Translations under genes and position numbers: made by a program
Shown here: piece after piece, positions 13,992 to 14,670 of the stretch
Numbering within the stretch: position 1 is the stretch's first letter
Layout of the letters: each line of letters opens with the position of its first letter
Assembly: GCA_014860625.1 (NCBI GenBank)
Contig: JACZJJ010000024.1
Location: forward strand, 1 to 58,906
Reading direction: 5' to 3'
Length of the DNA: 58,906 bases
Source: Bacteroidales bacterium
GTDB lineage: Bacteria; Bacteroidota; Bacteroidia; Bacteroidales; FEN-979
Notes under the pieces: model-generated
Databases searched by the model: none
What the model saw: only the letters and a program-made list of their open reading frames with translations
Told to the model about the DNA's origin: nothing

Positions 13992-14588
13992 TTAAAAAAG
14001 TGGTGAAGGTTCTCCGAATTTTCCACTGAAGATCAGCTCCTTCAGCTCTTTCCTCTCCCGTGATGCCAATTCCCGCTCTTTCATCTCTTCCGGCAACGTG
14101 TCAGGGTCGCCATAATGTCCGATAGCCATTACAGCTAAGGGTTTGTAACCGTCGGGGATCTGAAACAGTTCAGTGGCCTTCTCTACCGAGAATCCGCCCA
14201 TCTGGTGAGTGAACAAGCCAAGGTTGGTGGCTTCCAGCGTGATGTGCGCCATCGCCTGACCGCAATCGTAAGCATGGAAGTTGTTTGGCTTTCCGTTGGA
14301 ACTGTAATTTTCCTTGCCTACCACCATCAGCAGAAGGGGAGCCCGGTCGGCCCACTGCTTATTCCAGCCAATCAGGGTGTCAAAGAGCTTTTCCCAAGAG
14401 GAGTCGCCTTTAATTCCCAGGATAAACCTCCAGGGTTGTTCGTTGATTGCACTGGGTGACCACCGGGCAGCTTCCAGTAGAGACGCGGCATGCCGCGTCT
14501 CTACTGGCTTGTCGGCAAACGCCCTGGGGCTCCACCGTTCGCGGCTGAGTTCATTGATCGGATAGTTGTTGTCAGCTGGTTTTTTCAT
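13992..14588 (-). CDS. Nitroreductase-family FMN oxidoreductase
   Basis: 198 residues, the usual single-domain length. Typical features are an N-terminal RWSPRAFADKPV (FMN-contacting Arg-x-Ser-x-Arg type), LLEAARWSPSAINEQPWRFI, YDCGQAMAHITLEATNLGL and KPLAVMAIGHYGDPDTLP. These enzymes reduce nitro compounds, quinones or flavins with NAD(P)H; the substrate cannot be predicted. The oddity is that residues about 27-38 (PVETRHAASLLE) are encoded by a perfect 34-bp palindrome, yet the alignment length to ordinary family members appears unchanged. The gap to lnt downstream is a tandem-repeat tract. Confidence 0.9.
   Translation of the reverse strand: MKKPADNNYPINELSRERWSPRAFADKPVETRHAASLLEAARWSPSAINEQPWRFILGIKGDSSWEKLFDTLIGWNKQWADRAPLLLMVVGKENYSSNGKPNNFHAYDCGQAMAHITLEATNLGLFTHQMGGFSVEKATELFQIPDGYKPLAVMAIGHYGDPDTLPEEMKERELASRERKELKELIFSGKFGEPSPLF
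14474..14507. repeat. Perfect 34-bp palindrome inside the nitroreductase gene
   Basis: CCAGTAGAGACGCGGCA is followed immediately by its exact reverse complement, with no spacer. Such GTAGAGACGCGGCATGCC words are interspersed palindromes in several bacterial phyla, as far as I know. Here it is translated in frame as part of the first FMN-side helix. Confidence 0.9.
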
Positions 14589-14600
14589 TGTTTCACCTTT

Positions 14601-14670
14601 TGCTATTCGCTATTCGTCTTTCGCTATTCGCTTCATCCCCACATCCCCACATCCCTACATTCCCACATCA
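14601..14670. repeat. Tandem tract between nitroreductase and lnt genes
   Basis: TATTCGC / CTTTCGC heptamers (14601-14632) are followed by CATCCCCA octamers (14634-14670). The lnt stop codon (14668-14670, TGA) lies inside the last octamer. Confidence 0.8.

Follow-up and report, generated by a model that had tools for sequence, protein, structure and literature searches.

A double-foot REP-type palindrome in frame within a conserved helix of a Bacteroidales nitroreductase

Introduction

Among the TnpA-REP systems, subclass 2.4 is characterized by 'double foot' REPs, which carry GTAG together with its reverse complement; they occur in Cyanobacteria, Bacteroidetes and scattered phyla, and lie in frame inside the transposase gene (PMC6006769). 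Intragenic GTAG/CGTC REPs are likewise known as short palindromic repeats lying in frame in housekeeping genes, and in recB of two Xanthomonas species different REPs occupy about the same site (Di Nocera et al. 2013, PMC3733652). Rickettsia palindromic elements (RPE), of which the RPE-1 elements are longer palindromic insertions (PMC3733652), are also palindromic and in frame within many conserved proteins, but their likeness to the case described here is one of effect only. Perfect inverted repeats are part of coding sequence in mitochondrial genes of Nematomorpha, too (PMC6649704); they reach up to 284 bp and apparently do not form a dispersed RAYT-type family.

The element described here was found in a window of 58,906 nucleotides, contig JACZJJ010000024.1 of a Bacteroidales bacterium. 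It has the GTAG/CTAC ends and the long self-complementary body in common with the double-foot REPs of subclass 2.4, and is also like them in the taxa that carry it and in its in-frame copies in the transposase gene between the HUH and Y motifs (PMC6006769). The element itself is of a known kind, and intragenic REPs as such are known. However, the copies reported in PMC6006769 are insertions in the transposase gene, whereas the present one is part of an unrelated enzyme, where it occupies a conserved helix without net length change; it differs in the same way from the REPs of Di Nocera et al. (PMC3733652), which are described as insertions, while the nitroreductase copy leaves the length unaltered. 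The unusual part is this length-neutral entry into a conserved helix, combined with turnover in place. In the literature as searched, neither length-neutral entry into a helix nor alternative palindromes at one coding site of sister species were described for double-foot REPs, and a search for the exact sequence GTAGAGACG returned a single match, an unrelated paper.

Results

The palindrome (Table 1) consists of two arms of 17 nt each (14474-14490 and 14491-14507), which are 100% complementary and abut without a spacer (34/34 positions). The window contains no longer palindrome, the runner-up measuring 16 bp, and the longest one in 40 base shuffles of the window reached 24 bp. A single one of the 10,616,832 synonymous codings of PVETRHAASLLE gives rise to this palindrome. 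Both its length, unmatched in the window, and this count of codings show that the 34-bp palindrome is real and not a product of chance. It comprises a 28-bp element whose symmetry is prolonged by 3 bp on each side; this element starts with GTAGAGACG and ends with CGTCTCTAC, and thus has the 5' GT[AG]G and 3' C[TC]AC ends of a double-foot REP. In the mRNA, the palindrome is predicted to form a hairpin of -31 kcal/mol (z -5.7). Short tandem repeats (14602-14669; GCTATTC x4 and CATCCCCA x4.5) are found just upstream of the nitroreductase start, and other simple repeats lie between the same genes in a genome of the comparison, G002.

Table 1. Positions of the palindrome, the REP-type element and the host gene in the window.
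Feature	Position	Strand	Basis
34-bp perfect palindrome CCAGTAGAGACGCGGCATGCCGCGTCTCTACTGG	14474..14507	.	Repeat search and shuffle comparison
28-bp double-foot REP-type element GTAGAGACGCGGCATGCCGCGTCTCTAC	14477..14504	.	Copies elsewhere in the same genome
Nitroreductase-family gene, 198 aa, palindrome in frame	13992..14588	minus	ORF list, Pfam, PDB, alignments, model

The reading frame around the palindrome matches the Pfam family Nitroreductase (PF00881; E 2.3e-22, 80.4 bits against a curated cut-off of 23.5) and PDB entry 2fre (E 2.5e-40), bearing out the preliminary description, which had reported a perfect zero-spacer palindrome serving as nitroreductase coding sequence. The palindrome encodes P28-V-E-T-R-H-A-A-S-L-L38 and the first base of E39. 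In the predicted structure (mean pLDDT 86.9 for the whole model, about 91-96 for this block), residues 31-42 are helical, and according to this model the palindrome supplies the preceding loop and the N-terminal half of the helix; the earlier placement in a 'conserved first helix' is a fair one. Between the genome holding the window (G000) and that of a congener (G003), dN is 0.15 and dS 2.6 (saturated), and the gene is under purifying selection.

In G000, which comprises 3.77 Mb, the palindrome is one of about 34 copies of a dispersed GTAGAGACG-N10-CGTCTCTAC family. The pattern TAGAGACG-N10-CGTCTCTA is found 34 times at ≤2 mismatches, compared to 3 times for the reversed control pattern, and the 28-bp core 17 times at ≤3 mismatches, so that the search for further copies proposed in the preliminary description was positive. 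Five other genomes of the genus hold 2-36 copies each, with 1-5 matches to the reversed control across these genomes and G000, and one dispersed copy, G004:C291, is identical to the nitroreductase-site palindrome at 26/26 positions. The centre of the element is variable, being mostly NGGCATGCCN but also CGATTAATCG, CCATTAATGG or ACCCATGGGT, and is perfectly palindromic in 54 of 75 copies. Where pairs in the same 75 copies differ from the commonest one, the change is matched on the opposite arm in 109 instances and unmatched in 100; pair 1/28 is G-C in 61 of the copies. Outside the 28-bp core, symmetry is in weak excess only, at the second and third flanking pairs. The dispersed pattern is also present in records named Cyanobacteria, Bacteroidales, Chloroflexi, Acidobacteria, Desulfuromonas and candidate phyla. 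Viral contigs across the whole collection hold the palindrome in only 6 stretches, so that phages do not stand out as a main carrier. One G000 locus (L014, G000:C133:16669-16830) holds a small tandem array, in which element copies follow one another and three are spaced at 34 bp.

As is the case for double-foot REPs, the multicopy palindrome flanks or lies in a tnpA-REP gene. G000 has a single Pfam-level Y1 transposase gene (L232, 1417-1905), the stop codon of which is supplied by a palindrome copy, with another copy 97 bp further on. Its product scores 67 bits against NCBIfam REP_Tyr_transpos, under the 80-bit cut-off, and matched no transposase in a PDB search. The protein is a divergent RAYT, whose DHVH, WL (no WQ) and YILENP depart from the subclass 2.4 motifs NH[IFV]H, WQ and YIxNNP. 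When 118 loci were fetched by the palindrome alone, seven carried a homologue of this RAYT (E 5e-22 to 4e-46). In all seven, which belong to other genomes, the palindrome lies inside the transposase frame, between the HUH and tyrosine motifs, and three have flanking copies as well; the RAYTs with internal copies largely agree with the subclass 2.4 motifs, with NHVH or NHIH and WQ, but have a varying Y motif. The ordinary Y1 transposases of the family (L236-L263), considered as partners, are without GTAGAGACG palindromes, so that only the divergent RAYT group is linked to the palindrome. The incomplete assemblies of G003 and a further congener, G004, contain no Pfam-level RAYT; mobilisation there would be either past or due to a gene missed in these assemblies. 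In G005, another pair of palindromes, CTGCGCGATTAATCGCGCAG and TTGCGCGATTAATCGCGCAA, brackets RAYT-like genes (L234, L235); the centre of this pair is the one seen in the G003 nitroreductase palindrome.

No gap falls in the palindrome segment when the nitroreductase is aligned with eight relatives (40-76% identity), with 2fre or with other PDB nitroreductases, and in the PF00881 alignment 42 protein residues pair with 42 profile positions. The family spacing is thus normal, as had been assumed, and the clear insertion against which the preliminary description had set its reading is not seen. Orthologues in other genera lack the palindrome even in partial form: they are symmetric at 6-10 of the 34 positions and, within the same family, read V-E-P-E-K-L-I-S-L or similar at the site. 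Within the genus, by comparison, the same codons hold GTACAGACGCGATTAATCGCGTCTCTCC in G003, whose palindrome, AGACGCGATTAATCGCGTCT, has a different centre and 26 symmetric positions, and GTACCGGCGCGATTCATCGCGTCGTTG in G004, a decayed palindrome with the centre GATTCATC and 22 symmetric positions, against 34 in G000. The inner 20 bp of G000 and G003 show six differences, which constitute three complementary pairs in the centre, and both types of centre are also found in family copies at other places in these genomes. The element is old, as two sister species also have it or a decayed form of it. In the same-genus genome G002 (L218, G002:C80, reverse strand), the orthologue is a nitroreductase remnant that breaks off at about residue 26, a few bases short of the palindrome site, and the remainder of the gene is missing up to the next gene; this single case may represent a palindrome-provoked deletion.

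Two of the three frames of the element are open, encoding V-E-T-x-H-A-x-S-L or R-D-x-A-C-x-V-S. Further in-frame copies are found in PurL (G000 and G004, with tandem VQTGHA units), Der (G001 and G003), MoeA (G001 and G004), ThiL (G003 and G004, altered in G001) and dihydrolipoyl dehydrogenase (Lpd; G000 and G004), gene names which, unlike those of nitroreductase and the PDB-tested TsaD and MutM, were assigned by reading the sequences. Compared to element-free orthologues, these other copies of the genus mostly lengthen the protein, as net insertions in loops or linkers. At one and the same place, ThiL of G001 and that of G004 contain different perfect palindromes, which is another case of symmetric change. 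The PurL genes of G000 (L010, G000:C33) and G004 (L228, G004:C24) carry tandem partial units, VETGHA, VQTGHA and VQTGHT, whose number differs between the species. In the TsaD gene of a record from another phylum, Komeilibacteria (L139, one copy at 716-743), three copies lie in frame and both open frames are used; relative to proteobacterial TsaD, two of these three 28-nt copies bring only about 3-4 extra residues, and loss of native bases on entry is therefore not unique to the nitroreductase.

Discussion

The most probable reading, to which we assign a probability of roughly 0.75, is that the palindrome is a REP-type copy that entered the nitroreductase gene once, without changing its length, in an ancestor of the genus, and later exchanged its centre in the G000 lineage. 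The palindrome is a copy of a double-foot REP, with GTAG at one end, the complement CTAC at the other and a self-complementary body, and belongs to an element class that serves as substrate of REP-associated tyrosine (HUH/Y1) transposases. It would probably have been mobilised by the RAYT; the divergent motifs of the G000 RAYT and the lack of a Pfam-level RAYT in G003 and G004 speak against this. In the ancestor, the copy would have come to lie at native codons for V-E-x5-S-L, a pattern similar to the V-E-T-x-H-A-x-S-L of the element's own open frame, and this resemblance of the two peptides would ease both a microhomology-guided overwrite and its tolerance. To leave the length unchanged, native bases may have been lost at the junction, or the element may have been copied across the native segment by a template switch at short homologous ends. 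The helix encoded there would have stayed in register, with purifying selection on the gene continuing. In the G000 lineage, an ATTAAT centre was probably replaced afterwards, symmetrically, by GCATGC, the dominant centre of this genome; the simplest routes are short gene conversion and template switching, with another copy as donor. The preliminary description, which had proposed a replacement, perhaps by templated repair, or a very old co-opted element, was largely right in that the event was length-neutral and the element is old, while the replacing route is a conjecture of ours as well; two refinements are that the palindrome was not made in place but is a copy of a known transposase-associated class, the double-foot REP/RAYT elements, and that sister species have another centre at the same codons, which the letters of the window alone could not reveal.

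Beside templated repair, another possible, if clearly less probable, route is that about 28-30 bp were simply inserted and native codons then lost in one or more compensating deletions, under selection for the helix register; this would dispense with any replacing mechanism. It agrees with the net insertions that are the common outcome elsewhere: as most other in-frame copies of the genus are of this kind, in loops or linkers, replacement is not the usual outcome. On the other hand, the ancestor of three species would have had to regain the exact length within a conserved helix, and no intermediate was seen. Once selection had restored the original length, an insertion would be indistinguishable from a replacement. 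The nearest orthologues share only 72-76% identity, too little to date or order the steps at this site closely or to separate firmly a single length-neutral entry from insertion with trimming or from two landings.

The different centres could also stem from two independent landings of different REP copies at a preferred native target, one in the G000 lineage and one in the G003/G004 lineage. The loops of ThiL, MoeA, Der and Lpd, repeatedly hit in sister species by different copies, would fit such a preference, as would the recB site of Xanthomonas (Di Nocera et al. 2013). We nevertheless consider this unlikely, since arriving twice at the same codons of a conserved helix, in the same register and with zero length change, is less likely than one entry followed by an exchange, and the decayed G004 copy with its ATTCAT centre points to an older ATTAAT-like state. 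Even less probable is retention of the palindrome for a function at this site, for example as an mRNA hairpin or protein-binding site: perfect symmetry was maintained in G000, but decay has left only 26/34 symmetric positions in G003 and 22/34 in G004, with the gene still under selection. In-place formation from native codons by quasipalindrome correction, without relation to the dispersed family, draws on the template-switch mutation at imperfect inverted repeats described in PMC7202029 and on the symmetric changes common within the palindrome family, yet its probability is negligible given the 26/26 match to G004:C291, the one palindromic coding in 10.6 million and the lack of even a partial palindrome in other genera, just as a chance palindrome is ruled out by the genomic copies, the shuffles and the count of synonymous codings.

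Beyond this locus, one may speculate that double-foot REPs can spread by templated substitution at short homologous ends, taking the place of an equal length of resident sequence, and are then themselves overwritten in place by other variants. We regard this as doubtful at present; if true, segments of proteins would be rewritten by a mobile palindrome family with no insertion taking place. For the question of how REPs move, the nitroreductase copy, with its different centres in sister species that all belong to the family, offers a concrete test of insertion against templated overwriting. The case shows how selfish palindromes can join enzyme cores, and the Der, MoeA, ThiL, Lpd and PurL loops of the genus, repeatedly hit by the same element, provide a natural series for ordering such events.
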